DNA of 25,009 bases from the IMG/VR virus record IMGVR_UViG_3300043449_001627, positions 1-25,009 of that record. One strand, given 5' to 3'. The translations under genes and the position numbers were made by a program. This document shows positions 1,222 to 22,779 of the stretch, in pieces. Each line of letters starts with the position of its first letter. Within the stretch, counting starts at the first letter, position 1. Under the pieces are notes generated by a model. That model searched no databases. It was not told the DNA's origin and saw only the letters and a program-made list of their open reading frames with translations. Source of the stretch: a virus.

Positions 1222-3252
1222 ATGTTTTATTTCGACGATACCTCTGTTGAGGATTTCTGTGGCTCAGAAAACCCTAAGCACTTGCTTGGAGGCAAGGGCG
1301 CTGGACTCGCGCAGATGAAAAGCCTTGATGTTCCAGTACCGGCTTTCATCGTCATTCCAACCAGCGTCTGCCTTGAGTATCTCAAGAAGCCAAAGTCGAC
1401 GATGGTCAAGATTGCCAAGGCTCTTCCCAAAGTGAAGAAGCATTTCGTAAAGCAGTTTGGCTATCTCCCTCTGGTGAGCATCCGCTCTGGGGCAAGAGTC
1501 TCGATGCCGGGGATGATGGATACCATTCTGAACGTGGGCCTTGATGCGTCGACCTACGGCGATTGGGCTGTTCGTCTCGGTGAAGATTGCGCCAAGGATT
1601 CCTACTTCCGCCTCATTGAGATGTTTGGCAACGTCGTCAACGAGATTCCTCGGGAGCACCTGTCTCTTGCTGTGGATGGGGGCTATCCTTTGGAGTTTTA
1701 TGAGGAGCAGGTAGGCTCCCCATTCCCCTCCGCTGACGACCAGTGGCTTCAGGCGATTGAGGCCGTCTTTCTTTCGTGGAATAACGACCGCGCCAAGACT
1801 TACCGTCAGTTGAACGGGATTCCAGAGAACTGGGGAACTGCCGTCGTCATCCAAGCCATGGTCTTCGGCAATCTGAACGATAACTCCTGTACGGGCGTTC
1901 TGTTCACTCGCAATCCCAGTACAGGATGCAACAAGATTACTGGCGAGTTCCTGATCAATGCTCAAGGGGAAGATGTGGTGGCCGGCATTCGGACTCCTCA
2001 GCCCTTGGACGAGATGGCGCAGTGGAACTCCCATTTGCAGTCGGCACTCTTCGCCTGTGTCCTCAATCTTGAGAATGAATTCCGCGATATGCAGGATTGT
2101 GAATTCACGGTTCAGGACGGGAAACTCTTTATCCTTCAGACACGGACGGGTAAGCGCACCGCCAAGGCCGCTGTTCGAATCGCCATGGACATGTTGGACT
2201 CTGGCCATATCTCAGAATCCGAGGCGCTGAAGCGCGTGACCTTGAAGCAATGGCACACAGCGGTTAAGCCGGTGATCGATCCTACGTTTAACCAACCCGC
2301 CCATGGCAAGGGGATCCCGGCCTCGAATGGCATTGCCTCGGGTGTCGCCGTTTTCTCAGCGCAGAAGGCGGTTGAAAGCAAGGAGCCTTGCATCCTCATC
2401 TCCGTTGAGACTACCCCGGATGATATCGCCGGAATGAATGCCGCCAAGGGGATTCTGACCATGATCGGCGGTGCCACTTCCCACGCCGCCGTGGTGGCTC
2501 GGGGCATGGATCGGCCCTGTGTCGTGGGCTGTATGGACCTCAAGAAGGATAGCAACGGGCATTTCTTCTTGAACGGTAAGCCTCTGCTTGAAGGGGGGGT
2601 GGTTACGATTGATGGCGGTACCGGATCCATTTGGGTAGATACGAAAGTCCCCGTGATCAGCGCCGAGTCAGACCCTTACATCCATAAGTTCCTTTCCTTG
2701 ATCCATAGCCAGTCCGACGCCCATCCGATTCTCAGTTTGGGGGATGGGATACCAGAGGGGCCTTGCTGGTATCAAGTCCAATCCTCAGAAGAGATTCAGC
2801 AGATTGGTTCGGCTTTACAGGGGTACCTCGATATTCGTCCGCAGATCACCAAAATGCCCGCGATGTTCCGGGAAATTCTGGAAGTCGGGTGCTCTGATCT
2901 CGATTCGACCGAGGAACTTTTGGGGAAGGCCGTCACAGACCTAGCCACAGAGATTGAACTTAAGTTCAAAGTCGTGACCAGTAACCCCAAGGTGGCCCTT
3001 CAGCTTCAAACGGCGGGAGTTGGGACGGTACCTATCGTGACCGAATGGGAGCATCTTCTGGATGTTCAAGAAGACGCTGTCATTGATTTGATCGATCCCG
3101 GTCATCCGCGTGTAGCACAGATCATGGATCTTCGTGCCAAGGCAAATCTCCCGCTCAAGACCCTCTCAGTGGGGAGTCACGCGCAAACTTCAGAAAGCCA
3201 ACACTTCCTGTCCGAATCACAGCAGATTCGGAGGGTTTTAGGAGGTAACTAA
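1222..3252 (+). CDS. Pyruvate phosphate dikinase-like protein lacking the PEP/pyruvate barrel
   Basis: The N-terminal two thirds is clearly PPDK-type. It has the GGKGAGLAQM motif (residues 23-32, Lys25), the SIRSGARVSMPGMMDTI ATP-grasp segment (about 86-103), the GTAVVIQAMVFGN and GEDVVAGIRTPQP regions, and the LQTRTGKRTA end of the nucleotide domain. A full phosphohistidine swivel domain follows, with GGATSHAAVVARG and catalytic His421. These parts normally move phosphate from ATP to histidine. A standard PPDK is about 870-900 residues and ends in a PEP/pyruvate-binding TIM barrel. Here only about 195 residues follow the swivel domain, and I see neither the barrel's GLCRTEHMF-type motif nor its catalytic cysteine. 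The phosphate acceptor may therefore differ from pyruvate. The start is fixed by TAAGGAGTG (1209-1217) just before the ATG. A copy of the 16-bp palindrome lies inside the gene at 2954. Confidence 0.9.
   Translation: MFYFDDTSVEDFCGSENPKHLLGGKGAGLAQMKSLDVPVPAFIVIPTSVCLEYLKKPKSTMVKIAKALPKVKKHFVKQFGYLPLVSIRSGARVSMPGMMDTILNVGLDASTYGDWAVRLGEDCAKDSYFRLIEMFGNVVNEIPREHLSLAVDGGYPLEFYEEQVGSPFPSADDQWLQAIEAVFLSWNNDRAKTYRQLNGIPENWGTAVVIQAMVFGNLNDNSCTGVLFTRNPSTGCNKITGEFLINAQGEDVVAGIRTPQPLDEMAQWNSHLQSALFACVLNLENEFRDMQDCEFTVQDGKLFILQTRTGKRTAKAAVRIAMDMLDSGHISESEALKRVTLKQWHTAVKPVIDPTFNQPAHGKGIPASNGIASGVAVFSAQKAVESKEPCILISVETTPDDIAGMNAAKGILTMIGGATSHAAVVARGMDRPCVVGCMDLKKDSNGHFFLNGKPLLEGGVVTIDGGTGSIWVDTKVPVISAESDPYIHKFLSLIHSQSDAHPILSLGDGIPEGPCWYQVQSSEEIQQIGSALQGYLDIRPQITKMPAMFREILEVGCSDLDSTEELLGKAVTDLATEIELKFKVVTSNPKVALQLQTAGVGTVPIVTEWEHLLDVQEDAVIDLIDPGHPRVAQIMDLRAKANLPLKTLSVGSHAQTSESQHFLSESQQIRRVLGGN
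2954..2969. repeat. 16-bp palindrome TTGAACTTAAGTTCAA, perfect copy
   Basis: Exact match to the recurrent palindrome, inside the dikinase-like gene. Here the repeat begins at the second base of a codon, so it is read in a different frame from the copies at 6449 and 17953. This argues against a shared peptide and for a DNA-level site. Confidence 0.8.
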
Positions 3253-3273
3253 CAGAAGAGACTTTGGGCAGAA

Positions 3274-3282
3274 TGTTATGAT
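3274..3282 (+). promoter_or_regulatory. Candidate extended -10 promoter
   Basis: TGTTATGAT (TGn plus TATGAT) lies 17 bases before the ribosome-binding site of the zinc-ribbon gene. No good -35 is present at normal distance, which extended -10 promoters can tolerate. It sits in the 63-base gap after the dikinase-like gene. Confidence 0.4.
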
Positions 3283-3315
3283 GCGCTCACAATTTATCTA
3301 AGGAGTGATGGTCGG

Positions 3316-3726
3316 ATGAACATACCCTGCCCAAAGTGTTCGAGCACGGTGACAAGATTAGAGGAAGAAGGGACGAGCCTATTTTTGAGATGCCGGTGCG
3401 GCTTCAATAAATGTATGGCCTCAACACTAAGTAGTGGGTTTTCGATTGAACATATTCATATTGATGGAGAGGTAAAGCTACCTAAAAAAGATTCGAAATT
3501 GGCCCAGTGTCTTGGGGCCTTGGCCTCACTCAAAGAAGCCTCGACACAAGAAGTTGCTAAAGAACTGACCAAGAGAGGAGAGTCTTGGTGCAGTGATGAG
3601 GTGGCTTCGTTTTTAACTATTCTTAAGCATCGTGGTTTAGTCGTTATTGTAGTGCCGGGGAAAGGAGTTCTCGGTGGAAGTCGGTGGTCTTTGACCGCGA
3701 CAGCCAGGAGGCTTTTGAAGCTATGA
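3316..3726 (+). CDS. Zinc-ribbon / winged-helix-like putative regulator
   Basis: A 136-residue protein. The N-terminus has a zinc-ribbon pattern, C5-x2-C8 with C26-x-C28 (and C33 nearby). The rest (about 55-136) has alternating hydrophobic helices, including an EASTQEVAKELTKRG segment like a recognition-helix pair, then a beta-hairpin-like RGLVVIVVPGKG...GSRWSLT region. This reads like a winged helix-turn-helix. Together they suggest a nucleic-acid-binding regulator, but no family is identified. TAAGGAGTG at 3299-3307 supports the ATG at 3316; an ATG at 3308 opens only a four-codon frame. It leads a three-gene cluster (3316-4585) that is AT-richer than its surroundings. Confidence 0.8.
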   Translation: MNIPCPKCSSTVTRLEEEGTSLFLRCRCGFNKCMASTLSSGFSIEHIHIDGEVKLPKKDSKLAQCLGALASLKEASTQEVAKELTKRGESWCSDEVASFLTILKHRGLVVIVVPGKGVLGGSRWSLTATARRLLKL

Positions 3727-3741
3727 CCGGAGGAGATAAAT

Positions 3742-4059
3742 ATGAGTTTGGCCATTGGTGTAACCGAGGGTGCTGTTATCGAGATAGATAACCACCCTCT
3801 TACCGTTATAAAGTCAGACGAAACTAAAATTGAAGTGGAGTTTCTCGGCCAAAATTACACTCTTTCAGAGTTTGAGTCCGTTGAACTATATCCGTCTGTG
3901 TATGTTTGTATGGGTAAGCCGGCTATCCACCTTTTGAATGTAAAGGAGGAAGCTAAGGCCTGGGATCTTCTCCCGAGAATTCTGTTCGAAGCGCCAAGAA
4001 GCGTTTCGATTCAACGCCGAAGGAAGCAGTATGGCAGTAACAAACCACGTCCCCGGTAA
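3742..4059 (+). CDS. CsrA-like small RNA-binding protein (tentative)
   Basis: A 105-residue protein. The N-terminus (EGAVIEIDNHPLTVIKSDETKIEVEF) resembles the GE-x-IxI...VxV...VRIG strand pattern of the CsrA/RsmA translational regulators. The C-terminal segment EAPRSVSIQR (83-92), followed by RRKQY, matches CsrA's conserved APxxVxVxRxEIY end. Between them is an insertion of roughly 40 residues, so it would be an expanded version. If correct, it binds mRNA leaders and alters translation. The match is from motif reading only and is moderate. The ribosome-binding site is GGAGGAG (3730-3736). Its end overlaps the next gene by 29 bases. Confidence 0.6.
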   Translation: MSLAIGVTEGAVIEIDNHPLTVIKSDETKIEVEFLGQNYTLSEFESVELYPSVYVCMGKPAIHLLNVKEEAKAWDLLPRILFEAPRSVSIQRRRKQYGSNKPRPR

Positions 4060-4585
4060 GCGGGGTTTCGGGGTTGACTCCGTCTTGTTGTGGCATGTCA
4101 AACAGAACCACGGTATTGAAGGCAAGGAGTTTATTGACTACGTCCGAAGATCTGTCAAAGCCTCCCATACCAAGGGAAACCGGCGATTCCATGATTGGTT
4201 TTTTGTACTCAACGAAAAACAGACCGTCGTGGCCTATTGCTACGGGGAACAGGGGGAGGTCATAACCGCGAGATCGATTAGACTCGCAAAACAGGGCCTG
4301 ACCGATGATCCCCCACCGCCCTTGATTCCGAAGCCTAAAACGCCTCTCAAGTTGCCTGAAGCCCCCTCAAAGGGGGCTACTCATTTCCAGAATAAACCTC
4401 ACACCTATTATCACTGCGAGGTTTGTCAGGATACGGGTAAGGTGAAGGTATATGACGAATGCCCTTACTGTGAAGGGTCCGGGTGTGAACATTGCGGTAA
4501 TCAAGGTGAAATACCCACCAAAATCCCATGCCAAAGTTGTTCAACGGATCCAAAAGGTGGGTTACGAAAGAGGCAAAGAAATTGA
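4031..4585 (+). CDS. Protein with DnaJ-type cysteine-rich zinc domain
   Basis: A 184-residue protein. The C-terminal half has four CxxC pairs, C129/C132, C144/C147, C152/C155 and C167/C170, several followed by the G-x-G spacing of DnaJ/Hsp40 zinc domains. These normally bind two zinc ions and unfolded protein. There is no J domain (no HPD motif), so it is not a full co-chaperone. Residues 15-85 form a separate unrecognised domain with WHVKQNHGIEG and HDWFFVLNEKQTVV stretches, and a proline-rich linker (94-112) joins the two. The start at 4031 follows AAGGAAG and lies within the end of the preceding gene, so translation is probably coupled. Confidence 0.8.
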   Translation: MAVTNHVPGKRGFGVDSVLLWHVKQNHGIEGKEFIDYVRRSVKASHTKGNRRFHDWFFVLNEKQTVVAYCYGEQGEVITARSIRLAKQGLTDDPPPPLIPKPKTPLKLPEAPSKGATHFQNKPHTYYHCEVCQDTGKVKVYDECPYCEGSGCEHCGNQGEIPTKIPCQSCSTDPKGGLRKRQRN

Positions 4586-4610
4586 CCTCCTAGTGGACTC
4601 CATTTAATAT
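4582..4610 (+). promoter_or_regulatory. Consensus-like promoter upstream of first phosphatase
   Basis: TTGACC (4582-4587), 17-bp spacer, TAATAT (4605-4610); an overlapping TATAAA lies at 4608. The -35 overlaps the stop codon of the preceding gene. It shares TTGACCTC with the 1145 promoter. The expected start of transcription (about 4616-4618) falls inside the left arm of the 4612-4644 hairpin. Confidence 0.65.
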
Positions 4611-4611
4611 A

Positions 4612-4644
4612 AACCCTCTAATAACAACACCTTACTAGAGGGTT
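4612..4644 (+). promoter_or_regulatory. Hairpin covering the ribosome-binding site of the first phosphatase
   Basis: AACCCTCTA (4612-4620) is the exact reverse complement of TAGAGGGTT (4636-4644), with a 15-base loop. The right arm contains GAGGG, the only ribosome-binding-like sequence correctly placed before the ATG at 4647. Transcripts arriving from upstream would fold it shut. Transcripts started at the 4582 promoter would lack most of the left arm. Confidence 0.5.
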
Positions 4645-4646
4645 AT

Positions 4647-5138
4647 ATGAAGGAGTGTAAATTTGTAATCGGTAAATCTTCCCGCGTCATTCAGGGGGGA
4701 CCTTATCGACATCGTCCAAAAACTCATTTCGGCGTCAAGATGGCAGTAGAAATTGATTTGCCGTATGACGTATCCGTACCTACTCGCGACTTTTCGACCC
4801 CAGACCCATATCTGATGGAACGGGGTATTCAATCGGTACTCAAGCCTTTGGCATTGGGGGAGCCTATTTACGCCGGTTGCATGGGCGGGATCGGACGTAC
4901 CGGATTATTTTTTGCTTGTTTGGCGAAAGCCCTTGGTGAAGAGAACCCCGTTCGTTATGTCCGTCAGCATTACATAGGGCATGCGGTTGAGACCGCTGAA
5001 CAAGAGGAATATGTCAGATTATTTCGGGTCAACCGGCTACAGGAAATCCTCCCGAAATACCGACGTGCCGCGAGAATTATGGATCTGTTGCCTTATTCAT
5101 GGGTAAAACGATTGACCGTCCGTCTGCTCGGACTATGA
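4647..5138 (+). CDS. Tyrosine/dual-specificity phosphatase-like protein 1
   Basis: A 163-residue protein with the CX5R phosphate-binding loop GCMGGIGRTG, nucleophile Cys78 and Arg84, as in protein tyrosine and dual-specificity phosphatases. The histidine usually found before the cysteine is glycine. An upstream DFSTPDPY segment could supply the general acid. The family removes phosphate from proteins, and sometimes from nucleic acids or lipids; the substrate here is unknown. It is clearly related to the protein at 6170: they share the loop and a YVRxHY...AVE block after it. The start is odd. The sequence AAGGAGTG, elsewhere the ribosome-binding site, forms codons 2-4, and no in-frame start follows it closely, so I kept 4647 with GAGGG as its site. 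Confidence 0.85.
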   Translation: MKECKFVIGKSSRVIQGGPYRHRPKTHFGVKMAVEIDLPYDVSVPTRDFSTPDPYLMERGIQSVLKPLALGEPIYAGCMGGIGRTGLFFACLAKALGEENPVRYVRQHYIGHAVETAEQEEYVRLFRVNRLQEILPKYRRAARIMDLLPYSWVKRLTVRLLGL

Positions 5139-5183
5139 TCTGACTATGCCCCCACCACGGGCGACCCTAAGGAGTGTGAAACC

Positions 5184-6173
5184 ATGTTGCATCTTGACCC
5201 GGATACGTTGGCCTATTTCAAGGCCTCGCCATTCCTCAATCCCGTCGACTTCTCCACAACACCCGTCCCGGTATTGGCGAAGAAGTGCCAGCAGACGGTC
5301 CTTCAGTCCTCCCATATCGAACCTGAGACCGAGGCCCTGAGGTTCTACCTCTATAACCACGCGTTCTCCCTGCTGTCCAGCCGGTTCGGTCCTGACGAAC
5401 CTCTGGGCGATTATTTGCCGGTAGCCCTCCTGTATGCCGAGGCTTCCGGGGCGATTTTCAAGCGCCTCATGTACTACATGACGTTGATTGTGACGCGTGA
5501 ATCTCGCCACCTTCATACGTCGGTCAGTTTCCACAAGGAACTGGGGGCGAAGTACGGGGAAGAGTTTCTTCGCTTCCATCTGGAAATCAAGAACGCCGGT
5601 TCTTCCGGGGCCGTTGAGCGGTTTTACGTCAATCCCCCGGAGATGACCTTTGGTCGCTACGTCACCGGTCTGACGGATCTGTTCAATAACGGCAACTTCA
5701 GTGGCGGTTATGGCGGTAAAGCGTGGGGCGGGATCGCGAATACTCTCCGTGCCATGGTCGTCGGTGAGACGTCACCCGAAATTATGGTCGATACCGCTTG
5801 GACGCTCTGCCATAACAATGGACCGATCTTCAACAAGGGGATGCTGTTTCAAACCTACTCGTCGGAAATCAAGCGCATTCTGGATGTGCAACGGGCCGGC
5901 ATGATCCCTCAGTACTTCAATGAGGGCCTTACTCACTTCACCAAGAAGGTCGATGGGTTCGAAATGCTTCGGACTCTCTTCCCCAACGAGATGTCGGGGT
6001 ACATCAACTGGTTCCAGGTCGAGGCTCTGGGTTCAATGCAGAAGTATCCCAGTGAAAAAGCCCTTCAGATCTCCAAGTATGGGGAGCCCGTGAAGGAGCC
6101 TGAATCTCCTTTCGGTAAGAAAGTCTGGGTGTCTGAGAAAGATTACGTTGAAACGATGGAGAGGGCGGCATGA
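5184..6173 (+). CDS. Unrecognised 329-aa protein between two phosphatases
   Basis: I do not recognise this protein. It is soluble, with no signal peptide or membrane segment. It has a mainly helical N-terminal half and a notable central block rich in glycine, asparagine and tryptophan (FNNGNFSGGYGGKAWGG, then TAWTLCHNNGPIFNKGM, about residues 167-220). Such a block is typical of a conserved active-site or binding region. The start is secure: TAAGGAGTG at 5168-5176 precedes the ATG by seven bases. The end overlaps the ATG of the second phosphatase by four bases (ATGA), so the two are translated together. Its place between two paralogous phosphatases suggests a common task, but function is unknown. 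Confidence 0.9.
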   Translation: MLHLDPDTLAYFKASPFLNPVDFSTTPVPVLAKKCQQTVLQSSHIEPETEALRFYLYNHAFSLLSSRFGPDEPLGDYLPVALLYAEASGAIFKRLMYYMTLIVTRESRHLHTSVSFHKELGAKYGEEFLRFHLEIKNAGSSGAVERFYVNPPEMTFGRYVTGLTDLFNNGNFSGGYGGKAWGGIANTLRAMVVGETSPEIMVDTAWTLCHNNGPIFNKGMLFQTYSSEIKRILDVQRAGMIPQYFNEGLTHFTKKVDGFEMLRTLFPNEMSGYINWFQVEALGSMQKYPSEKALQISKYGEPVKEPESPFGKKVWVSEKDYVETMERAA

Positions 6174-6838
6174 GACAGTACAAGGATATCGTAGGCGGGG
6201 CTTCGACCTACAAGAGATGTTTTGAATCCCATCCCGCATTACCTATCGGGAAGTTCTCGATCTTTGGCGGGAGCTGTATTCACCCTGTCATAAAGGATGC
6301 CGACATTTATGTTGGATTTGATCGCGGAATGTCTCTGGGGGAGAAGGCTTACCCTTGGGTAGACGGGCATAGCTTCCTTTTTCACATCCTCGACGGAGGG
6401 GTGCCCACTGACCTTCAGCAAAGCCTCCAGTTGGTGGACTGGTTAGCGTTGAACTTAAGTTCAAAAAAGAAAATCCACCTCGGCTGTATCGGGGGTCACG
6501 GTCGGACGGGGCTCATTCTTTCGGCCCTCGTCAAGACGATCACCGGGGAAATGGATGCGGTTGAGTATGTCCGTAAGCACTACTGCAAAAAGGCCGTGGA
6601 ATCTTCGGCTCAGATTGACTGGTTACACAAGCACTTTGGGATTGCCAAGGCCAAGCCCTCCAAGGATCACCTGTATACCTCAGGGAAAGTGATTTCCATC
6701 TCTACCGGGGGTTGGCAGGGTGCTGAGGGGAAGTCCAGCTTCGACTCGGTGAAGAAATCGACCCCCTCCAGTGGGTCTGCCAGAGTCCTGGAGCCTTTGG
6801 TCAAGGACGGGTGCCTCTGGGGGGCGAATGCCTTTTGA
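6170..6838 (+). CDS. Tyrosine/dual-specificity phosphatase-like protein 2
   Basis: A 222-residue protein with the CX5R loop GCIGGHGRTG, nucleophile Cys106 and Arg112, followed by helices like those of the protein at 4647 (EYVRKHYCKKAVES against RYVRQHYIGHAVET). The HILDGGVPTD segment before the loop is a candidate for the general-acid aspartate. The C-terminal 60 residues are Ser/Gly/Lys-rich and look disordered, unlike the shorter paralogue. It is translationally coupled to the unknown protein upstream (ATGA overlap). A perfect copy of the 16-bp palindrome lies within the gene at 6449. Substrate unknown. Confidence 0.87.
   Translation: MRQYKDIVGGASTYKRCFESHPALPIGKFSIFGGSCIHPVIKDADIYVGFDRGMSLGEKAYPWVDGHSFLFHILDGGVPTDLQQSLQLVDWLALNLSSKKKIHLGCIGGHGRTGLILSALVKTITGEMDAVEYVRKHYCKKAVESSAQIDWLHKHFGIAKAKPSKDHLYTSGKVISISTGGWQGAEGKSSFDSVKKSTPSSGSARVLEPLVKDGCLWGANAF
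6449..6464. repeat. 16-bp palindrome TTGAACTTAAGTTCAA, perfect copy
   Basis: Exact copy inside the second phosphatase gene, read as codons TTG AAC TTA AGT TCA. TTA, AGT and TCA are uncommon in neighbouring genes here, which suggests the DNA sequence itself is selected. Confidence 0.8.
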
Positions 6839-6862
6839 CCGGATGTCCCGCTTCGATATTCT
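6835..6862 (+). promoter_or_regulatory. Candidate promoter upstream of the polymerase block
   Basis: TTGACC (6835-6840), 16-bp spacer, TATTCT (6857-6862). It shares the TTGACC -35 with the promoters at 1145 and 4582, but the -10 is weaker. It sits in the 67-base gap before the 6906 gene. Confidence 0.45.
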
Positions 6863-6905
6863 GACCTCTCAAGAACAAGAAATTCACCCTTAAGGAGTGT
6901 TCGCA

Positions 6906-7817
6906 ATGGCTATCAAATTCAAGTCGTCCTTGGGCGTAGAGGATCTTCTCTCCCATTTAAAACTCGACTACACGCAAGAGTACTTCACCCATCATGGCTA
7001 CGAGGTTGATCTGGGTATCTCTGAGATCCGACTGTGTAAAGCGGAAGACGGGACCATTCTGGCCACGATCAAACCCGGTGGGCTGATCTCAAAAATCAAG
7101 TCATCAGACTCAAATTCCACTCTCTGGGTCAGAGCCCGTAGCTTGATCTCAGGCGTCATGATCGAGTTGATGAAAAACGGAAAACAGCCGATTGGACTGT
7201 GTGATCAAGACTGGTTTGAGAAGACCAATCCGCTAACGGATCTTCTCAAAGTCTCAACGCTCGGTAACCATGGGATAGGCACTTTAACCCCTAATGGTGA
7301 GATGACCCCCGGTATCACTCCAATCGACACCCAATTCACCATCCCCTTCGGTACCAGCGTTATCACTCCCGGTGAACTGGCTCCCGTTCCTGTTATTAAC
7401 AACTCCTCAGTGCCGGCTTTCCAGAAGGAAGAGCCTCCGGTGGCCACGAAAAACGAGATCGTGAACGGTAGCCGGTGTGCTTTGCGCGATGCCACCAAAC
7501 TCTATCAGCCGGTCAAGGGGACTTCGACCGGGGCTCGATATTACGTCGTTGGCATTTCAAAAGAGGGGGTCAAGATCGCCGTCAAGAAACCGGACAGCGC
7601 CATCTCGGTTCGCGTCGAGGCAGAAAAGCCCATCCCCCCGAAAGTTCTGGAGACTTTCGGCACTTTTGGGATTTCCAATAAGGATGGCTATCTCAGTGGG
7701 CACTTTACGTTGAATCATTGCACCCCGAACCGGTTTATCGGGGCTTTATTGGCCGATCTTGGTCTGGAATGGAAAACTCCACTACCCAACCTTCAACAGT
7801 TGGAGGTGGCTCCATGA
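6906..7817 (+). CDS. Unrecognised protein, first of the polymerase block
   Basis: A 303-residue protein that I do not recognise. It seems to have two folded parts, about 1-115 and about 185-300, joined by a long linker rich in proline, threonine and glycine (about 120-180). The second part alternates strands and turns (YYVVGISKEGVKIAVKK...). There is no signal peptide or membrane segment. The start is ATG 6906, seven bases after TAAGGAGTG (6891-6899); an in-frame GTG at 6897 overlaps that site and is rejected. It overlaps the next gene by four bases. Position ahead of the DNA polymerase suggests a replication-related role, by inference only. Confidence 0.85.
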   Translation: MAIKFKSSLGVEDLLSHLKLDYTQEYFTHHGYEVDLGISEIRLCKAEDGTILATIKPGGLISKIKSSDSNSTLWVRARSLISGVMIELMKNGKQPIGLCDQDWFEKTNPLTDLLKVSTLGNHGIGTLTPNGEMTPGITPIDTQFTIPFGTSVITPGELAPVPVINNSSVPAFQKEEPPVATKNEIVNGSRCALRDATKLYQPVKGTSTGARYYVVGISKEGVKIAVKKPDSAISVRVEAEKPIPPKVLETFGTFGISNKDGYLSGHFTLNHCTPNRFIGALLADLGLEWKTPLPNLQQLEVAP

Positions 7818-8032: not shown

Positions 8033-8033
8033 G

Positions 8034-10820: not shown

Positions 10821-10836
10821 TTGATCTTAAGTTCAA
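10821..10836. repeat. 16-bp palindrome, copy with one mismatch, intergenic
   Basis: TTGATCTTAAGTTCAA matches the consensus at 15 of 16 bases, in the 66-base gap between polymerase and portal genes. It lies just upstream of an extended -10 (10850), where an operator or activator site would sit. Confidence 0.75.
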
Positions 10837-14711: not shown

Positions 14712-14776
14712 GATACCACGCACGACCTGATGAACCTTATGTTCTGCAATTCGGGATTTCCTGCGATACCCAGTGA
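14546..14776 (+). CDS. Possible overlapping second lipoprotein frame
   Basis: In the frame +2 relative to the 14457 gene, an ORF from ATG 14546 encodes a basic stretch followed by LVAILCFCATTLTGC, a good hydrophobic segment with lipobox (Cys45), and runs 65 bases past the end of the 14457 gene. Rz/Rz1 spanin pairs are commonly nested in this manner. The start is uncertain: the segment before the hydrophobic region is long and arginine-rich and GGAG is 11 bases upstream. The reality of this gene is a guess supported by the lipobox and overhang. Confidence 0.35.
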   Translation: MSPCQPPSRPAQDEVDHRRGHGICRCRGRTLVAILCFCATTLTGCALNCSPAGTVRYHARPDEPYVLQFGISCDTQ

Positions 14777-14788
14777 TCTTAAGTTCAA
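14773..14788. repeat. 16-bp palindrome, copy with two mismatches
   Basis: GTGATCTTAAGTTCAA, 14 of 16 bases, overlapping the end of the possible second lipoprotein frame. The 170 bases that follow, up to the protease ribosome-binding site, contain no gene I can support. They hold only a weak TTTGGA / TAAGAT pair (14906-14932) that could be a promoter. Confidence 0.6.
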
Positions 14789-15531: not shown

Positions 15532-16714
15532 GAAGACCGTCACCGTCGAGGCGACTGAACTTCTCACCCCTGACGTGAAGTACATCTCTTTGGTCAAGAG
15601 AGGTGCCAACCGAATCCCCTTTCGTATTACCAAGTCGGAGAACGATTCAATGATTAACTTGGATTTGTCGCGCATCTTCAAGCGTGAAAAGCCGCCGACC
15701 GTCCTTGCGGTGGTCGTCAACAAAGCCGAGGTGTCTGAAGAGACCACCTCGATCATCAAGGAAGCCGGGTTTTCGGTTGAAGATGTCATCGTCCAGGACG
15801 GTTGCACGATCTTCAAACAGCACGCTACGGTGGACGGGGCAATTGCCCTGAAGATGGACGAGAACGTCGCTCTTCTGGTCGATGCCGACTCTTGGACCGT
15901 TCCGGTGACCAAGGCTGAAGAGTCATGGGCGAATGAGTTCTATGAAGCCATGCAGTGTGACGGTTATTGGGCCACCTACAGTGGTGCCACCAGTTACCTG
16001 ACTTGGACCCTGAGCAAAGCCCTGTATGCTGCCAAGTCGGCTGAGGAAGCTCGCAGTTCTGCCGCTGAAGTCATTGGCGCATACAGCGACTATGTCCTTG
16101 GCATGGTGGGCGCTATTCCTGCCTCGGCCTTCGCCATGGGTGAAGCGGTGGCGAAGAGCCTTTCAGAGCCGGGTGAAGGTGAAACCACTGAACCCCCGAC
16201 TTCAGAAACCGAAGTAGCCGAGAAGTCCGATGGAGTTCCGGGCGATGAGGGTGAAGGTGAGGCAACTGAGACCGATCCCGCAGAGGAAGTCAGCAAGAAT
16301 GACGATCCTGCCGGTGATGGGACTGGTGTTGAGGATCCCGAAGCTGAAGTACCTTCTGAAGTTGAAGCCTCGGCGGATGAAGCCGGTATGGCCTCCGTAA
16401 GCAAGGCTCTGGCGGAAATGACTCAGATGATTCAAGACCTTCCGTCCCAGTTGGCGGAGATGAGTGAAGTCATCAAGTCGATCCAGAAAGAGAACCTTGC
16501 TCTGAAGGACAAGATTGAATCCGTGGAGGTGATTGCAAAATCAGCAACTAGCGTCGTCTTAGGAAGTGAATCCCCGGACGATACTATGACCTTGGAAACG
16601 TCGGCCAAAACGGATTCTTTCGAAGTGATCGATACGGCGTTCCAGCCGAACATTCGAAAGTCAGCACGTACGATGACAGCGAATTCCCGGCAACACCGGT
16701 CGTTATCCCTCTAA
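15524..16714 (+). CDS. Scaffold-like head protein with acidic centre and coiled coil
   Basis: A 396-residue protein between protease and capsid genes, the usual place for scaffolding. The N-terminus has DVKYISLVKRGANRIPFRI (18-36), a motif seen in head proteins next to XkdF-type proteases. Residues about 205-290 are very rich in Glu, Asp, Ser and Pro and are probably disordered. Residues about 292-345 form a likely coiled coil (AEMTQMIQDLPSQL...). A basic C-terminal tail could contact the shell. Protease fused in frame or cut after assembly is possible. The role is inferred from position and composition. Confidence 0.7.
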   Translation: MTRKTVTVEATELLTPDVKYISLVKRGANRIPFRITKSENDSMINLDLSRIFKREKPPTVLAVVVNKAEVSEETTSIIKEAGFSVEDVIVQDGCTIFKQHATVDGAIALKMDENVALLVDADSWTVPVTKAEESWANEFYEAMQCDGYWATYSGATSYLTWTLSKALYAAKSAEEARSSAAEVIGAYSDYVLGMVGAIPASAFAMGEAVAKSLSEPGEGETTEPPTSETEVAEKSDGVPGDEGEGEATETDPAEEVSKNDDPAGDGTGVEDPEAEVPSEVEASADEAGMASVSKALAEMTQMIQDLPSQLAEMSEVIKSIQKENLALKDKIESVEVIAKSATSVVLGSESPDDTMTLETSAKTDSFEVIDTAFQPNIRKSARTMTANSRQHRSLSL

Positions 16715-16753
16715 GTTTCCGTATCCTAGAGATTGATTAAGGAGTGAACGTAA

Positions 16754-17725
16754 ATGTCTAGCAACGAAAATCTGATCAAAAAGGCCGACATTGCTCTGGC
16801 TGATTTGTCCAGCAACGGTGGTCTCCTGCTTCCTGAGCAGAACCAACAGTTCATCCGAGTATTGATGGAATCCCCCACCATCTTTAACTCGATCCGCATG
16901 GTCACCATGAATTCGCCACAGCGCAAGATCAACAAGATCGGCTTTGGTAGCCGTATCCTGCACGCGGCGGGTGATGCTTCGACCGATATCAACGGCAACG
17001 GTAGCCGTGCCCTGAGTGCTTCTCAGCGTGCCAAGCCTGATCTGTCTCAGGTCACTCTCAGCACCAAGGAAGTCATCGCGGAAATCCATATTCCGTACGA
17101 AGTCTTCGAAGACAACATCGAAGGTGGCAACATCAACGTGGCCATGGGCAAGACCCCTGGTGGTCTTCAGGACACCATTGTCACCATGATCGCTGAACGC
17201 GCCGCTCTCGACTTTGAAGAACTGTGCATCGACGGTGATAGCACCTCTTCTGACTCTTTCCTCGCCCTCCACGATGGTTTCCTCAAGCAGGCCAACTCAC
17301 ACATCGTCGACGCGAACGGCAAGACGGTCAGCAAGGATCTCTTCAAGGCCGGCGTCAACGCGATGCCGCCGAAGTACCTGCGTAACCGCAGTGCACTGAA
17401 GCACTTCATCTCCATCGACAACGAAAACGAGTACCGCGATACCCTCGCGAACCGTCAGACCGCTCTGGGTGACGCGTCCGTACAGGGCAACAACTCGGTC
17501 TACAGCTTCGGTTCCGAAGTCGTCGGTGTACCGCTGATGCCGGGTGACCGTGGTCTGTTCACCAACCCGCTCAACCTGATCTTCGGTATCCAGCGTCAGA
17601 TCACCATCGAGTACGACAAGGACATCCGTAGCCGCATGTTCATCATCGTCCTCACCGCTCGTATGGCCCTCGCCATCGAACAGGATGACGCGGTGGTTAC
17701 CTACCGGAACATCCTGGGTAGCTAA
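16754..17725 (+). CDS. Major capsid protein
   Basis: A 323-residue protein following the protease and scaffold genes and ending in a terminator. The sequence shows the usual major-capsid pattern: a variable N-arm, an EIHIPYEVFEDNIE segment, a long spine helix (TIVTMIAERAALDFEELCIDGD), then strand-rich P-domain pieces, including VVGVPLMPGD and the FGIQRQITIEYD region. An HK97-like fold is expected but not provable here. Codons favour C-ending forms more strongly than in neighbouring genes, as expected for the most abundant protein. The start is ATG 16754 after TAAGGAGTG (16738-16746). Confidence 0.88.
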   Translation: MSSNENLIKKADIALADLSSNGGLLLPEQNQQFIRVLMESPTIFNSIRMVTMNSPQRKINKIGFGSRILHAAGDASTDINGNGSRALSASQRAKPDLSQVTLSTKEVIAEIHIPYEVFEDNIEGGNINVAMGKTPGGLQDTIVTMIAERAALDFEELCIDGDSTSSDSFLALHDGFLKQANSHIVDANGKTVSKDLFKAGVNAMPPKYLRNRSALKHFISIDNENEYRDTLANRQTALGDASVQGNNSVYSFGSEVVGVPLMPGDRGLFTNPLNLIFGIQRQITIEYDKDIRSRMFIIVLTARMALAIEQDDAVVTYRNILGS

Positions 17726-17750
17726 GACCCCCGTTCTGGGATTCGTTAGA

Positions 17751-17780
17751 GCCTCTCTGTTCCTCTAGCAGGGGGGCTTT
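17751..17780 (+). terminator. Intrinsic terminator after major capsid gene
   Basis: Nine-bp stem (GCCTCTCTG / CAGGGGGGC, two G-T pairs), nine-base loop, short T-run (TTTAA). Likely partial, letting capsid mRNA exceed downstream messages. Confidence 0.6.
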
Positions 17781-17799
17781 AACCTAAATGGAGTATCGA

Positions 17800-18102
17800 A
17801 TGATCGCAGTAAAACTGACCCGGTGTGAAAGCTACACCCTGGTGCCCAACCAGTTTGTTCAGGGCAAGATCTACCATGTCTCGGATGAGATTGGTAAGGA
17901 TCTGCTCGGCAAGCTCGATGAATATGGCATCAACTACTTCGAGGCCGTGGAATTGAACTCAAGTTCAAATGCTGAAGGGGAAGCCCCCGAAGGCGAAGCG
18001 CCTGCGGAATCTGGCGAAGGCGCTGAGGGTGAAACCTCGGCTGACGCTTCGGAAGACGCATCCACGGGTAAGAAGAAGGCTGGTCCGAAAGTCACCATCT
18101 AA
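17800..18102 (+). CDS. Small protein with acidic tail after capsid gene
   Basis: A 100-residue protein. Residues 1-50 form a compact unit (LVPNQFVQGKIYHVSDEIGKDLL...YGINYFEAV), followed by a Glu/Gly/Ala/Ser-rich tail ending in a short basic KKKAGPK segment. No family recognised; position suggests a head accessory or head-completion protein. I chose ATG 17800 because ATGGAGT, a one-base variant of the common ribosome-binding site, lies just before it; the in-frame ATG at 17788 is part of that sequence. A copy of the 16-bp palindrome lies at the junction between the folded part and the tail. Confidence 0.72.
   Translation: MIAVKLTRCESYTLVPNQFVQGKIYHVSDEIGKDLLGKLDEYGINYFEAVELNSSSNAEGEAPEGEAPAESGEGAEGETSADASEDASTGKKKAGPKVTI
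17953..17968. repeat. 16-bp palindrome, copy with one mismatch, in coding DNA
   Basis: TTGAACTCAAGTTCAA, 15 of 16. It falls exactly where the folded domain of the 17800 protein gives way to its acidic tail, a place that tolerates inserted sequence. Confidence 0.75.
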
Positions 18103-18131
18103 TCAAACCCACTTTTCGTAAGGAGTGAATC

Positions 18132-18770
18132 ATGTTGGAAAACATTAGCGCCCAGTTCGGACAGGGGGGTACCGGCATTCCTCAGCTAGGAGCAATCCTT
18201 CGGGAATTGCAGGGCCTTACCTTCAATCTGCTCGCAGGCGCATCCGCTAACACCAAGGTCAATGTCGCTGACATTCGTCTTGGAGACACCGTGGCTTTCG
18301 CCCTCAACAACAACGCAGGTGCGCTGACCGACATTACGAGTTCCATCTCGATTGTCGATACGCATGCGTCAGGCACGATCACTGTCGGCACGCTCCAAAA
18401 TGGGGATGTGTGCGTAGTGGATGGCCGCACCTACACGGCTCGAGTGGCTCCGTCCGCTTCGGGCGAGTTCAAGATCGGTGCTACAGCGGCTGAATCTGCG
18501 CTGAACCTGTCTTCAGCGATTGCTCTACTGGAACGCAAGGATGTCCTCGGTCAAGCTGTGCCGAAGCTCCAGGTTTCCGTGGCCAGCAATGTCGTAACCC
18601 TCCGCGCTCAAGCGGATGGCGTGGCAGGCAACAGCATCGTACTGACCGGCTCAACCCGCCTTCAGGTCACCGGTTCCGGTACGCTGACGGGTGGTTCTGA
18701 TACGGGTGGCGTCAAGTCTTCCGGTGCGACGAACCAGATCGTTCTTATCTGGTACAAGAAAGCTCGTTGA
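18132..18770 (+). CDS. Head decoration / fibre-like protein
   Basis: A 212-residue protein. The central and C-terminal portion (VVDGRTYTARVAPSASG...IGATAAESALNLSSAI...VTLRAQADGVAGNSIVLTG) matches a widespread phage surface domain found in head fibres and decoration proteins. The N-terminus (QFGQGGTGIPQLGAIL) is glycine-rich and may attach to the capsid. Composition is rich in Ala, Gly, Ser and Thr, with strands predicted throughout. The start follows TAAGGAGTG (18119-18127). Function is inferred from domain type and position. Confidence 0.65.
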   Translation: MLENISAQFGQGGTGIPQLGAILRELQGLTFNLLAGASANTKVNVADIRLGDTVAFALNNNAGALTDITSSISIVDTHASGTITVGTLQNGDVCVVDGRTYTARVAPSASGEFKIGATAAESALNLSSAIALLERKDVLGQAVPKLQVSVASNVVTLRAQADGVAGNSIVLTGSTRLQVTGSGTLTGGSDTGGVKSSGATNQIVLIWYKKAR

Positions 18771-18773
18771 TCC

Positions 18774-19409
18774 ATGACTAAGCTAGTCACGATCGATGAC
18801 GTGCTGAAAGACTTCAGCTATGAGGCGACCGACGAAATCAAAAAGTTGATCGCTTCATATCTGGATATGGTGACCGAGGAGCTCTCTGTTCTCCTCGGAA
18901 CGCCATTGGCGCGAAGCGATTACACCGACTATTTCTGGTACGACGAAAGGTCGAGAGCCAACGCGCTCCCCTATACCCAATTTAATCTGAAGGCGGGCTT
19001 CGTGTCAGGCCCGGTTCAGGTCGACTACGCCCCCATGCTGGATCAGTTTGATCCGGATGTGGCGAGGGTCAAAGGTCAGCCGGTTCCAGTGAGCCCGAAT
19101 GACCTCCTTGTGAATGCTGAAAATGGGACCGTCCGTTGTATGGATGAATCCCTTCAGACCAATTCCTTCTACCGAATCCGCTACACCGCAGGGTTTACCG
19201 CCACAAAGTATGTCGTCAACGGCATAACGAACAGCTATCTCTACGAGGGAACGCCGGAGTGGCTTCGCCAGGGGGGCAAGGTTCTGACTTCCCAGTTGTT
19301 GAGGGACCACTTTGCCCCCAACACGCGATCCAAGCAGGTGGATAAGCGACTCAATGACATCCTTCAGTTGAAGGCTCGCCGTTTCGGCCCTTCCTGCCGT
19401 CCGCTCTGA
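18774..19409 (+). CDS. Head-tail connector (head completion) protein
   Basis: A 211-residue protein. An N-terminal helical bundle (MTKLVTIDDVLKDF...IASYLDMVTEELSVLLG), a strand-rich insert, then C-terminal helices ending in basic residues is the plan of gp6/gp15-type adaptors that extend the portal ring. The FYRIRYTAGF motif is common in these adaptors. It begins three bases after the previous stop without a clear ribosome-binding site, so translation is probably coupled. The order before a tail completion protein fits. Confidence 0.68.
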   Translation: MTKLVTIDDVLKDFSYEATDEIKKLIASYLDMVTEELSVLLGTPLARSDYTDYFWYDERSRANALPYTQFNLKAGFVSGPVQVDYAPMLDQFDPDVARVKGQPVPVSPNDLLVNAENGTVRCMDESLQTNSFYRIRYTAGFTATKYVVNGITNSYLYEGTPEWLRQGGKVLTSQLLRDHFAPNTRSKQVDKRLNDILQLKARRFGPSCRPL

Positions 19410-19410
19410 C

Positions 19411-19836
19411 ATGCTGGTCAAAATCACGGTGTCCGGGTTGAGGGAGCTCGCACAGAAGACCGAGCCCTTTCGGAGTCCCACGTTTGCCCATGGCGCTGTC
19501 CAAGAGGGGATTGGCATTGTGTCCCGTGGAATCAAGGAACGCTTTGATGCGGAAGTGGACCCAAACTATCGCCCATGGGCTGCTTTGAAGGAGTCTACGG
19601 TCAAACGCAAAGGGGGCCGAGGCAAGATCCTGGTCAAAAGCGGGGGCCTGAGAAACTCGATTCGCGTGATGGGTATCAATGCCATGGCCAGTAAAGTGGT
19701 CGCCAAGGACATCCCCGGAAAATTCCATCAGGAAGGCACTCCCAAAATGGTGTCCCGTCCTTTCATGGGTATCTCGGATAAAGACAATCGGAATGTGGAG
19801 AGCATGCTGAGAAGGCGGCTTCGGCTTCTGGGTTAG
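19411..19836 (+). CDS. Phage virion morphogenesis / tail completion protein
   Basis: A 141-residue protein of the P2 gpS / Mu gpG type. The pattern YRPWAALKESTVKRKGG, ILVKSGGLRNSI, a FHQEGTPK segment and RPFMGIS near the end is characteristic. These proteins finish the tail end so it can join the head. It starts one base after the connector stop. Confidence 0.82.
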   Translation: MLVKITVSGLRELAQKTEPFRSPTFAHGAVQEGIGIVSRGIKERFDAEVDPNYRPWAALKESTVKRKGGRGKILVKSGGLRNSIRVMGINAMASKVVAKDIPGKFHQEGTPKMVSRPFMGISDKDNRNVESMLRRRLRLLG

Positions 19837-19850
19837 GAACTGGACCCCCA

Positions 19851-19859
19851 TGCTATTCT
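19851..19859 (+). promoter_or_regulatory. Candidate extended -10 promoter
   Basis: TGCTATTCT (TGn plus TATTCT) in the 46-base gap before the gp37-like gene. No good -35. Same form as 3274 and 10850. Confidence 0.35.
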
Positions 19860-19882
19860 GAGATCAGTTAAGGAGTGTCCCG

Positions 19883-20476
19883 GTGATCAACGAGATTGAA
19901 GACTCAATTGTGAAGCGGCTTCGGGCCAAAATCCCGCCGCCCATTCGCGTTGAGGCTTTCCCGGATTCACCGTCGGGTTACCAGTTTCTGACCCCGCATG
20001 GTTCGGTGTTCGTCCGTTTCGAGGGGGAGGATCTCGTGGGAATCTCCCAATCCATGGGGATTATCAAGCAGGATTCGACCATGACGTTTGTCATTACGGT
20101 CCTGCATCGAAATCTTCGGGTACAAGGGGGGATTTACCAGTATCTCGACCAGGTGAAGACCGCCTTGCGGGGGTTTCGTCCTATACCGGGGAGTTCCAAG
20201 ATCTGGATCAACAAGTCCGGGTTTGTCGGGGAAGAGCAGGGGACTTGGCACTACGAAATCTGGGCCAGTCTGTTGATGCCACAGGTGGAGAAGCCCGACC
20301 CAGAGCCCAACCTACCGGTGGCCCACCACCTGAGCTTTGATGGGAATTTCGGCGTACTGAGTATTGCCGAAAATGAGGCCGAAGACCCCAGTCAGGAGAC
20401 GGTGACCTTCAGCTACAGTCCAGAGAATGTTTCCCGGACTGAACCGATGCCGCCCCATGACGAAGGCGACGACTAA
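19883..20476 (+). CDS. Mu gp37-like tail protein (DUF1834 type)
   Basis: A 197-residue protein that starts at GTG 19883, five bases after TAAGGAGTG (19869-19877). The N-terminus (INEIEDSIVKRLRAKI) and the core (VFVRFEGEDLVG...MTFVITVLHRNLR...IYQYLDQVKTALRGFRP...YEIWASLLMP) resemble Mu gp37, which lies just before the sheath gene, as here. The last 50 residues are acidic and probably flexible. Role: tail terminator or assembly. Its stop codon is part of the next TAAGGAGTG. Confidence 0.72.
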   Translation: MINEIEDSIVKRLRAKIPPPIRVEAFPDSPSGYQFLTPHGSVFVRFEGEDLVGISQSMGIIKQDSTMTFVITVLHRNLRVQGGIYQYLDQVKTALRGFRPIPGSSKIWINKSGFVGEEQGTWHYEIWASLLMPQVEKPDPEPNLPVAHHLSFDGNFGVLSIAENEAEDPSQETVTFSYSPENVSRTEPMPPHDEGDD

Positions 20477-20485
20477 GGAGTGACC

Positions 20486-20689
20486 ATGAAGACGTTCAAC
20501 TACCAAGGCCCTTTGACTTCCGTAACGCTGGCAGACCAGACCTCGGTGATTTTGTTTCCCGGTTCTACGGTTTCTCTGCCTGAGGACAACGAATTCGTGG
20601 TGACGCTGATGGCCCTTGACCGACTTCAGTCGGTTAAACCGGCAGAAGAACCCGCCCCGACCGTGAAAGCACCCAAAAGCGACGGTTGA
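20486..20689 (+). CDS. Small tail protein between gp37-like and sheath genes
   Basis: A 67-residue protein. A short strand-rich part (TSVTLADQTSVILFPGSTVSLP) and a Pro/Ala/Lys tail. In Mu-like phages a small protein (gp38, DUF2635 type) occupies this slot, but I match by position and size only. The start is ATG 20486 after TAAGGAGTG (20474-20482); GTG 20480 is inside that site. Confidence 0.7.
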   Translation: MKTFNYQGPLTSVTLADQTSVILFPGSTVSLPEDNEFVVTLMALDRLQSVKPAEEPAPTVKAPKSDG

Positions 20690-20726
20690 TTTTTGACGAC
20701 CTTGTAATTCATTTAAGGAGTGACTC

Positions 20727-22175
20727 ATGCCTGCAAATTTCCTCCACGGGGTGGAAACCATCGAACTCAAGATCGGCCCTCGCCCCATCAAGGGAGTGAA
20801 GACGGCTGTGATCGGGTTGGTGGGTACAGCCCCCCTCTATGACGTAGCCGCCGACTATCAAACCCCGAATCAGGCCACCCTGGTTCTGAGTGACACGCAG
20901 GCGAAGGAGTACTTCGGTACCCAACGTGCTGGTTTCACTTTGCCTGCTTCTCTTGCGGCAGGATTCAAACAGGGGAATGGTCCGATCTACATCGCCATCA
21001 ATGTTCTGGATCCTGCGGTACACGTGACTTCGGTCACGAACGAAGCCCAGACCTTCGACTCCAAGGGCGTGCTCTCTCTGGCACATCCCCAGGTCAATCA
21101 AGTGGTCGTGAAGAACAGTGCCGGGACGACGACCTATGTTGCGGGTACGGACTACACCTTGGCTCAGGGTGATGGCGTGATTACGCGAATTGAAGGGGGT
21201 GCCATCACTGCCGGCGCTTCAGTCAAGATCAGCTACCAGTACCTCGACCCCTCCAAAGTGACCAATTCCGACCTGATCGGTGCCGTCAACCTTGCAGGGA
21301 ATCGGACTGGCCTTCAACTGTTCCTCGAGTCCTATCAGCAGTTCGGTTTCTACCCGAAGATCCTGATCGTTCCGGGATACAGTTCCAACCAAGCCATTGC
21401 CACGGAAATGGTCTCTCTGGCCACGCGGATTCGTGCGGTCGCTCCGATTGATGCCCCTGCGGGTACCACGCCTCAGCAGGCGATCACCGGTCGGGGTCCG
21501 GAAGGGAGTATCAACTTCAACACCGCTTCCGAGCGTGCGGTTCTGTGCTACCCCCACGTCAAGCGTTGGGATACCGATCTCAATGCAGAAGTCGTGGCCC
21601 CCTACAGTGCGTTCTACGCCGGGGTTCTGGCCCGCAACGACATCGAGAATGGCTACTGGTGGAGCCCCTCCAATCAGGAGATTCTCGGTATCACTGGCGT
21701 TGAGCGGAATATCACCGCGATGATTAACGATCCCACCTCTGAAGCTAATCTGCTGAATGAGTCGGGTATCACGACCATCTTCAACAGCTTCGGTTCAGGC
21801 TTCCGAGTTTGGGGTAACCGTTCAGCGGCATGGCCGTCTGAGACCGATCCCAAGAACTTCGTGAATATCCGCCGCGTGGCCGATGTGATTCATGAATCCA
21901 TCGAGTATTCGATGTTGCAGTTCATTGATCAGCCGATCACGAACGCATGGATCGACTCTGTGACCGAAAGCGTCAACAGTTTCATCCGCACCCTGATCGC
22001 CCGTGGCGCTCTGGTGGATGGAAGTTGCTGGTACGACCCGAACAACAATCCGGCAACGGAACTGGCGTTGGGGCATGTCACCTTCAACTATGCGTTCATG
22101 CCGCCGCCCCCCGCAGAACGAATCACCTTCGAATCGTTCGTTGACATCAACCTGCTGAGTAAGCTGGGTACTTAA
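20727..22175 (+). CDS. Tail sheath protein
   Basis: A 482-residue contractile sheath subunit of the P2 FI / Mu L type. Hallmarks are GVKTAVIGLVGTAP near the start, GPIYIAINVLDP, the central FYPKILIVPGYSS, the C-terminal NESGITTIFNSFGSGFRVWGNRS followed by FVNIRRVADVIHESIE, and FDVN-like ends (VDINLLSKLG). An insert (about 109-173: QVNQVVVKNSAGTTTYVAGTDYTL...) is an immunoglobulin-like surface domain seen in some sheaths. The start is ATG 20727 after TAAGGAGTG (20714-20722). The presence of a sheath defines the phage as a myovirus. Confidence 0.94.
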   Translation: MPANFLHGVETIELKIGPRPIKGVKTAVIGLVGTAPLYDVAADYQTPNQATLVLSDTQAKEYFGTQRAGFTLPASLAAGFKQGNGPIYIAINVLDPAVHVTSVTNEAQTFDSKGVLSLAHPQVNQVVVKNSAGTTTYVAGTDYTLAQGDGVITRIEGGAITAGASVKISYQYLDPSKVTNSDLIGAVNLAGNRTGLQLFLESYQQFGFYPKILIVPGYSSNQAIATEMVSLATRIRAVAPIDAPAGTTPQQAITGRGPEGSINFNTASERAVLCYPHVKRWDTDLNAEVVAPYSAFYAGVLARNDIENGYWWSPSNQEILGITGVERNITAMINDPTSEANLLNESGITTIFNSFGSGFRVWGNRSAAWPSETDPKNFVNIRRVADVIHESIEYSMLQFIDQPITNAWIDSVTESVNSFIRTLIARGALVDGSCWYDPNNNPATELALGHVTFNYAFMPPPPAERITFESFVDINLLSKLGT

Positions 22176-22185
22176 GGAGTGACCT

Positions 22186-22707
22186 GTGTCTAACATCACC
22201 ATCAATCGCGTAACGAATGCCAACGTCTACATGGATGGCACGTCGTTCCTGGGTCGGGCGGAGTCTATCGATCTGCCCGAGATCAACTACAAGTTCAGCG
22301 AGCACAAGGCGCTGGGTATGGTCGGTTCCAGCGAATTCTTCGCGGGCATCGAGAAGATCGAAGGCAGTATCAAGTGGAATTCGTTCTACATTGAAGTCAT
22401 GCGGAAGATCGCCAACCCGGTGAAAACCATTCAGCTTCAGGCCCGGAGTTCCCTTGAGACCTACAACTCTCAGGGTCGTACGACTGAAGTTCCGGTGGTC
22501 ACTTTCCTGACCGTCTCCTTCAAGGTGGCACCTTCAGGAAAGTACAAGCAACACGACAATGTGGAGCTTGATTCCAAGTTTGCGGCGTACTACGTCAAGC
22601 AGACGGTCGGTGGGGTGGATGTCGTCGAAATCGACGTACTCGCCAACATCGCCAAGGTCAACGGTGTGGATATTCTGGCGCAGTACCGGGCCAACATCGG
22701 CGGCTAA
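22186..22707 (+). CDS. Major tail tube protein
   Basis: A 173-residue protein of the P2 FII / Mu M type, forming the inner tube inside the sheath. NVYMDGTSFLGRAESIDLPEI at the N-terminus and the IEKIEGSIKWNSFYIEVMRKI block are typical. It starts at GTG 22186, four bases after TAAGGAGTG (22173-22181). A UUCG terminator follows immediately, which would set sheath and tube expression above that of the tape measure. Confidence 0.92.
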   Translation: MSNITINRVTNANVYMDGTSFLGRAESIDLPEINYKFSEHKALGMVGSSEFFAGIEKIEGSIKWNSFYIEVMRKIANPVKTIQLQARSSLETYNSQGRTTEVPVVTFLTVSFKVAPSGKYKQHDNVELDSKFAAYYVKQTVGGVDVVEIDVLANIAKVNGVDILAQYRANIGG

Positions 22708-22720
22708 ACGAAGCTCAGGA

Positions 22721-22746
22721 AGGAGGGGGCTTCGGCCCCCTTTCTT
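22721..22746 (+). terminator. UUCG-loop intrinsic terminator after tail tube gene
   Basis: AGGGGGC (22724-22730), TTCG loop, GCCCCCT (22735-22741), then TTTCTT. A C(UUCG)G tetraloop gives unusual stability. Confidence 0.85.
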
Positions 22747-22763
22747 CGCAGGCGGGATAAAAA

Positions 22764-22779
22764 TTGAACTTAAGATCAA
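22764..22779. repeat. 16-bp palindrome, copy with one mismatch, intergenic
   Basis: TTGAACTTAAGATCAA, 15 of 16, between the tube terminator and the tail chaperone start. It is the last copy in the window. Confidence 0.75.

Follow-up and report, generated by a model that had tools for sequence, protein, structure and literature searches.

How does a tailed phage come to carry one short palindrome over and over along its DNA, and what reads it? The question is raised by IMG/VR virus record IMGVR_UViG_3300043449_001627, taken here as a whole (25,009 bp; hereafter the window). Its gene content is that of a contractile-tailed phage: genes for ribonucleotide reductase, a pyruvate-phosphate-dikinase-like protein, DNA polymerase, portal, protease, capsid and tail sheath lie on one strand, and Megablast of the window against cultured phages gave no match. 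An original prediction, made from the letters alone, pointed out a 16-bp palindrome recurring six times at intervals of 3-5 kb and proposed that a dimeric protein binds it as a DNA site. Here we report that the palindrome belongs to a genome-wide, evenly spaced array in a lineage of tailed phages of about 80-120 kb, and that the array is under strong selection. We think it somewhat probable, from the distribution of genes and sites, that the array consists of double-stranded DNA sites read by the protein family phrog_17202 in a mainly architectural role, counting mixed roles partly in favour of this reading. Such an array appears to be a hitherto undescribed means by which a virus marks or folds its genome.

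The six copies stand where the original prediction placed them, with the same agreement to the 16-mer:

Site 1, 2954..2969: TTGAACTTAAGTTCAA (16 of 16 letters), core TGAACTTAAGTTCA at 2955-2968; within the pyruvate-phosphate-dikinase-like gene 1222-3252.
Site 2, 6449..6464: TTGAACTTAAGTTCAA (16 of 16); within the phosphatase/thymidylate-synthase-like gene 6170-6838.
Site 3, 10821..10836: TTGATCTTAAGTTCAA (15 of 16); between the DNA polymerase and portal genes.
Site 4, 14773..14788: GTGATCTTAAGTTCAA (14 of 16); in front of the prohead protease gene (14959), at a distance of 171 bp.
Site 5, 17953..17968: TTGAACTCAAGTTCAA (15 of 16); within the small gene 17788-18102, next after the major capsid gene.
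Site 6, 22764..22779: TTGAACTTAAGATCAA (15 of 16); with the next start codon (22798) 19 bp downstream, after an intrinsic-terminator-like stem that is itself 3' of gene 22186-22707.

Three copies thus lie inside genes, in two reading frames, and three between genes. Is their recurrence more than chance? A search of the window at up to three mismatches found these six against 0.07 expected and no additional copy; matches with four or five mismatches are at background level. Codon-preserving shuffles (300) gave 0.4 copies at up to two mismatches, with a maximum of 2. The palindrome is real, but the 16-mer is not its true unit: all six copies are exact matches to the 14-mer TGAWCTYRAGWTCA, which the shuffles almost never produce. 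The gaps of 3495, 4372, 3952, 3180 and 4811 bases are unusually even, with a coefficient of variation (CV) of 0.15 against 0.77 expected (P = 0.0013). It had been foreseen that shuffled sequences would not reach similar counts, and this held with one exception: when all 16,384 possible 14-bp palindromes were allowed to compete, 1 of 40 shuffles likewise reached six. Judged from the window alone and corrected for the choice of palindrome, the array is therefore only suggestive. With the relatives added, the evidence is overwhelming.

The closest relative (G1, IMGVR 3300001605_000014, 98 kb) is 72% identical to the window in the tail sheath and 88% in the capsid. The further copies predicted beyond the window are there by the dozen: 28 copies of the 16-mer at up to three mismatches and 36 exact copies of TGAWCTYRAGWTCA across the genome. 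G1 also redefines the unit, in which positions 4 and 11 are free to be A or T and the centre is TA, CA or TG. The exact 16-mer occurs in 26 of all viral contigs, one exact site in each. An unbiased palindrome search covered 11 relatives, namely 10 complete or near-complete genomes and a fragment (G5). Each carries 19-58 sites of the same layout, with a spacing CV of 0.37-0.68 against 0.93-0.97 expected; complete arrays hold 27-58 sites per genome, one per about 1.6-3.7 kb. When gaps are pooled (n = 406), 7.9% are shorter than one-fourth of the mean; random placement would give 22%. The relatives keep the layout of the palindrome with a shifted specificity, mostly TGCAATYRATTGCA:

Stenotrophomonas phages DLP5 and DLP3: TGCAATYRATTGCA, 35-36 sites.
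Vibrio phage PG28: TGCARTTAAYTGCA, 35 sites.
Rhodobacter phage RcZahn: TGCARWYRWYTGCA, 30 sites.
Rhizobium phage TM16: GTGMAAYATRTTKCAC, 27 sites.
Rhodobacter phage RcTiptonus: TRCAATCGATTGYA, 58 sites.
Agrobacterium phage JP1: TTGCAAAYRTTTGCAA, 49 sites.

The window's capsid protein fetched 53 contigs; in 38 of them the top-ranking palindrome of the 16,384 is of the NGCA type, compared with 1 in a Markov null.

Are the sites kept while the sequence around them drifts? DLP5 and DLP3 are 82% identical and retain 33 of 34 aligned sites, whereas random 14-mers are identical 18% of the time. The window and G1 share 70% nucleotide identity and retain 3 of 4 alignable sites, two of them intragenic and letter-perfect. 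Site 2 is identical at 14 of 14 letters at homologous codons (g1r 5408), where random 14-mers are identical in 2% of cases, and site 5 is identical at 14 of 14 at the homologous position (18169). Site 4 occurs in the same place (14961), with the next gene starting 196 bp downstream; site 6 is kept as a site (22929) with the letters TGATCTTGAGATCA; site 3 is degenerate (TGAAACTAAGTTCA); and site 1 has no alignable counterpart in G1. The expectation that relatives would keep the sites is thus borne out, and the array is under strong selection.

What kind of molecule recognizes such a site? It was argued at first that the palindrome, having no loop, cannot fold as an RNA hairpin. The reason given does not hold, since TTGAAC and GTTCAA can form a 6-bp stem around TTAA, but the conclusion that RNA is not the target does. 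Among 42 sites, the pairs at positions 4 and 11 are AT in 15, TA in 12, AA in 8 and TT in 7; because the two positions vary independently, RNA pairing is not conserved and the element is a DNA site. A double-stranded site for a dimeric protein is strongly supported. The sites are palindromic, and both half-sites are equally constrained. The suggested likeness of the GAAC-N4-GTTC core to the LexA/DinR operator proved coincidental: in G1, A and T have similar weight at position 4, and relatives differ at position 5, using TGCAAT, TGCAGA, TGACAT, GGCAAT and others in the same layout. Nor is the host a likely source of the reader. RcZahn and RcTiptonus infect one host and yet have different palindrome centres (TGCARWYRWYTGCA and TRCAATCGATTGYA), which points to a reader encoded by the phage.

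Which phage protein could it be? A comparison of core genes pointed to phrog_17202 (fam39), a core protein without annotated function encoded after RuvC. Its tails are rich in Lys, Ala and Pro, a helical stretch is conserved (...FxxFVExxxGxxYRKAxYLIxIYxxLV...LGWTKLKELAxxLTxENVDEWV...), and a strand-helix-helix segment lies at the C-terminus. A structural model (mean predicted local distance difference test score 83) has a helical core and, at its C-terminal end, a strand-like stretch with two helices; this end reads like a ribbon-helix-helix dimer. The chromosome-organizing protein MatP combines a helical domain with a ribbon-helix-helix; phrog_17202 may share this plan, a likeness of architecture rather than of aligned residues.

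The gene and the array occur together. The phrog_17202 profile matches the named motif-bearing genomes searched and, with a single exception (G021), all genomes over 70 kb in the capsid set that have an NGCA-type motif; it has no match in KellEzio and G2, both of which are without the motif. We then turned the comparison around, fetching contigs by phrog_17202 alone and searching their DNA without a prior motif. At the 78 usable loci, an NGCA-type palindrome came first of 16,384 in 57, against 2 of 78 in the Markov null and 0 of 15 unrelated contigs; the variants among these lineages include TGACATT, TGATMTY, GGCAATY, TGCAGAY and TGCACTY. The specificity series comprises L320, L329, G008, G017, L373 and L383-L388, with TGACATT, TGATMTY, TGCAGAY, TGCACTY, GGCAATY and TGCAAGC.

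Sites also gather in front of the gene itself. In the 250 bp upstream of its start there are 37, mostly at 41-110 bp, against 6.1 expected. A site within 300 bp upstream is found at 36 of 59 loci, where the rate for genes preceded by gaps of like size is 25% (P = 3e-8, a value that, like our other P values, overstates independence, as the loci share ancestry). Ranked by upstream sites, phrog_17202 is first among the core families, with 7 of 10 where the mean is 0.10. A DNA-binding protein that regulates its own gene would be expected to leave such a pattern.

We propose a mechanism in four steps. That a phage protein recognizes the palindrome as a dimer is strongly implied. That this protein is phrog_17202 is likely; for the DLP5 protein (gp066, 47761-48564) and the PG28 protein (6373-7353), the candidate target palindrome would be TGCAATCAATTGCA. 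Given such a reader, the chances are slightly better than even that the evenly spaced sites serve as anchors from which phrog_17202 folds or coats phage DNA, its basic tails neutralizing charge; the DNA so organized or compacted would be the replication concatemer or the packaging substrate. Finally, the upstream sites suggest that the protein may also act as its own repressor, from a site some 40-110 bp ahead of the gene. A phage-encoded chromosome-organizing protein, one of the roles originally listed, thus comes close to the best explanation, with binding deduced from the sequence pattern. More tentatively, the lineage might build a sequence-addressed nucleoid, with a histone-like phrog_17202 loaded every 2-3 kb at a self-specific palindrome and an address code, diverged between lineages, that marks DNA as self in replication and packaging.

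Several observations weigh against assigning the array to phrog_17202, besides the shared ancestry of the loci. Profile and fold searches of the protein returned no MatP and no other significant PDB match, and both its DNA binding and its ribbon-helix-helix are read from a sequence pattern. G021 (101 kb) has the motif and no detectable phrog_17202, and G020 has phrog_17202 with no NGCA motif found. The G1 gene is interrupted by stops or frameshifts that are likely assembly errors, and the 1.2 kb in front of it contain no site; the 25-kb window, a fragment of its genome, is without the gene. Covariation between protein and motif is only a weak lead: lineages that relax the outer T share Lys or Arg at one residue in the presumed recognition helix (3 of 3, against 2 of 50), a column picked among many and uncorrected for that choice, and a TGA-type motif predicted for L380 from its helix residues was not confirmed. 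Lastly, enrichment between genes and recurrence at fixed places, 5' of the protease and after the capsid gene, fit regulation as well.

Could the sites then be operators or stoperators, used by a phage regulator (perhaps phrog_17202 itself) to keep transcription from starting or from reading on along the genome, and so to run an expression programme or keep a prophage silent? Their placement speaks for some regulatory use. Between 28 and 56% of sites are intergenic where 8-18% would be expected. A site upstream of the prohead protease recurs in 6 of 9 genomes, second among core families, and one lies within 150 bp after the capsid gene at 17 of 35 loci; the upstream region of phrog_17202 is a third such place. 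Many G1 sites lie 16-21 bp 5' of start codons, after a promoter and a 5' hairpin, and some abut -35 boxes. DLP5 and DLP3 are reported temperate (PMC5834331, PMC7326821). Mycobacteriophage L5 is alike in having more than 20 sites across one genome, many of them in short intergenic gaps. However, L5 stoperators are asymmetric, oriented with transcription and bound by a monomer (PMC9283540), whereas the array sites are palindromes with equally constrained halves, a symmetry that leaves them no orientation. Spacing is even and not tied to transcription units, 44-72% of sites are intragenic, and the phage with the most sites, RcTiptonus (58), belongs to a cluster reported as virulent (PMC8601537). 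The stoperator-like role first suggested is thus possible but less favoured, and we regard it as rather unlikely to be the main one; regulatory and architectural roles can coexist.

Two sets of sites illustrate these placements. In G1 (reverse complement), intergenic sites at 55073, 66153, 67589, 69253 and 72282 have a promoter-proximal 5' hairpin (tcgcc...ggcga) on one side and the next gene's ribosome-binding site on the other. At L201, L204, L206, L210, L214, L217, L221, L223, L230, L238 and L254, a site lies about 57-95 bp past the major capsid stop codon.

A second alternative makes the evenly spaced sites a mark that sets phage DNA apart from host DNA, or a starting point for replication, recombination or headful packaging. 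Some other core protein would then act at them: the terminase small subunit, a lambda-O-like winged-helix protein or the RecA/RuvC module. Even spacing across the whole genome would suit such a mark, as would the conserved sites of the capsid-protease region and the position of the phrog_17202 gene in the recombination module. Against it, the candidate binders, including terminase-adjacent proteins, have unrelated recognition regions in phages that share one motif, and headful packaging needs only a single pac site. We consider it improbable.

Among individual readers rejected, the terminase-adjacent middle protein and the lambda-O-like protein both fail on such unrelated DNA-binding regions. 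Most bearers lack the MerR-like gp059, and phages with one and the same motif differ in its recognition helix; the SSB-like fam54 resembles a protein that binds single strands. The fast-evolving lambda-O-like protein, which lies between an AAA ATPase and DnaB (RcZahn 46799-47827, TM16 17870-18820, VP-RY-9 1627-3093), is probably a replication organizer.

Our first leading idea, a ParB/Noc-like CTPase loading at parS/NBS-like sites, now has very little probability and is largely refuted as a general reader: the array is kept in VP-RY-9 without any ParB domain and in several further large motif-bearing genomes, metagenomic ones among them, without a ParB-like protein, whereas KellEzio has the protein and no array. 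Its appeal had been that many relatives carry the gene two positions upstream of the large terminase gene, and that every named motif-bearing phage in the first group examined has it next to the terminase; that its N-terminal domain matches Noc and ParB, with the CTPase-domain signature (GxHR, N of the second motif) present as invariant R74 and N109 in alignment A1; and that Noc and KorB use dispersed 16-bp sites (PMC8429893, PMC11790492). Regions upstream of the ParB gene show no preference for sites (0 of 10), no PF13614 match to a ParA partner passed the cut-off in 10 genomes, and the AlphaFold model of the ParB-like protein is of low confidence. The gene without ParA is conserved in part of the lineage (L043:19945-20796, in DLP5; L044:1-930; L045:12951-13715; L052:3505-4383). 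In G1 it lies on the minus strand (L035:7372-8215), split by a single frameshift, with a palindrome 17 bp upstream of its start.

How does an array read by phrog_17202 compare with known systems? Phage nucleoid-associated proteins of the H-NS-like and Fis-like (NinH) kinds are likewise basic DNA-binding proteins carried by phages, if phrog_17202 binds as we suppose; to our knowledge they are low-specificity binders with no dedicated genome-wide site array. The ParB-family clamps Noc/NBS and KorB/OB resemble the array in having dispersed palindromes within and between genes, and differ in that many array genomes are without a ParB-like protein and the best candidate reader is unrelated. MatP/matS offers a short palindromic site dispersed over a replicon and a chromosome-organizing protein, a role that phrog_17202 would parallel. 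In E. coli its 13-bp target has 23 repeats in 800 kb (PMC3330122); the phage array sits in the phage genome, is 10-20 times denser and is evenly spaced. L5, discussed above, differs further in that the phage array also occurs in phages reported virulent.

How tailed phages organize their genomes inside the cell before packaging, and how they distinguish their own DNA from that of the host, are largely open questions. With cultured members (DLP3, DLP5, PG28, RcTiptonus, JP1 and TM16) and a single best candidate reader, this one is directly testable; if our proposal is right, a core protein family would gain a function, and its diverged protein-site specificities would form a natural set. In the open-access literature, covered incompletely by our search, the array is not reported, and the DLP3 and Rhodobacter phage papers found there make no mention of a palindrome.

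One further feature of the window concerns the gene that holds site 2. Related phosphatase-like genes at 4647-5138 and 6170-6838 stand on either side of a conserved phrog_20946 gene, and in relatives such genes are annotated as thymidylate synthase or tyrosine phosphatase.

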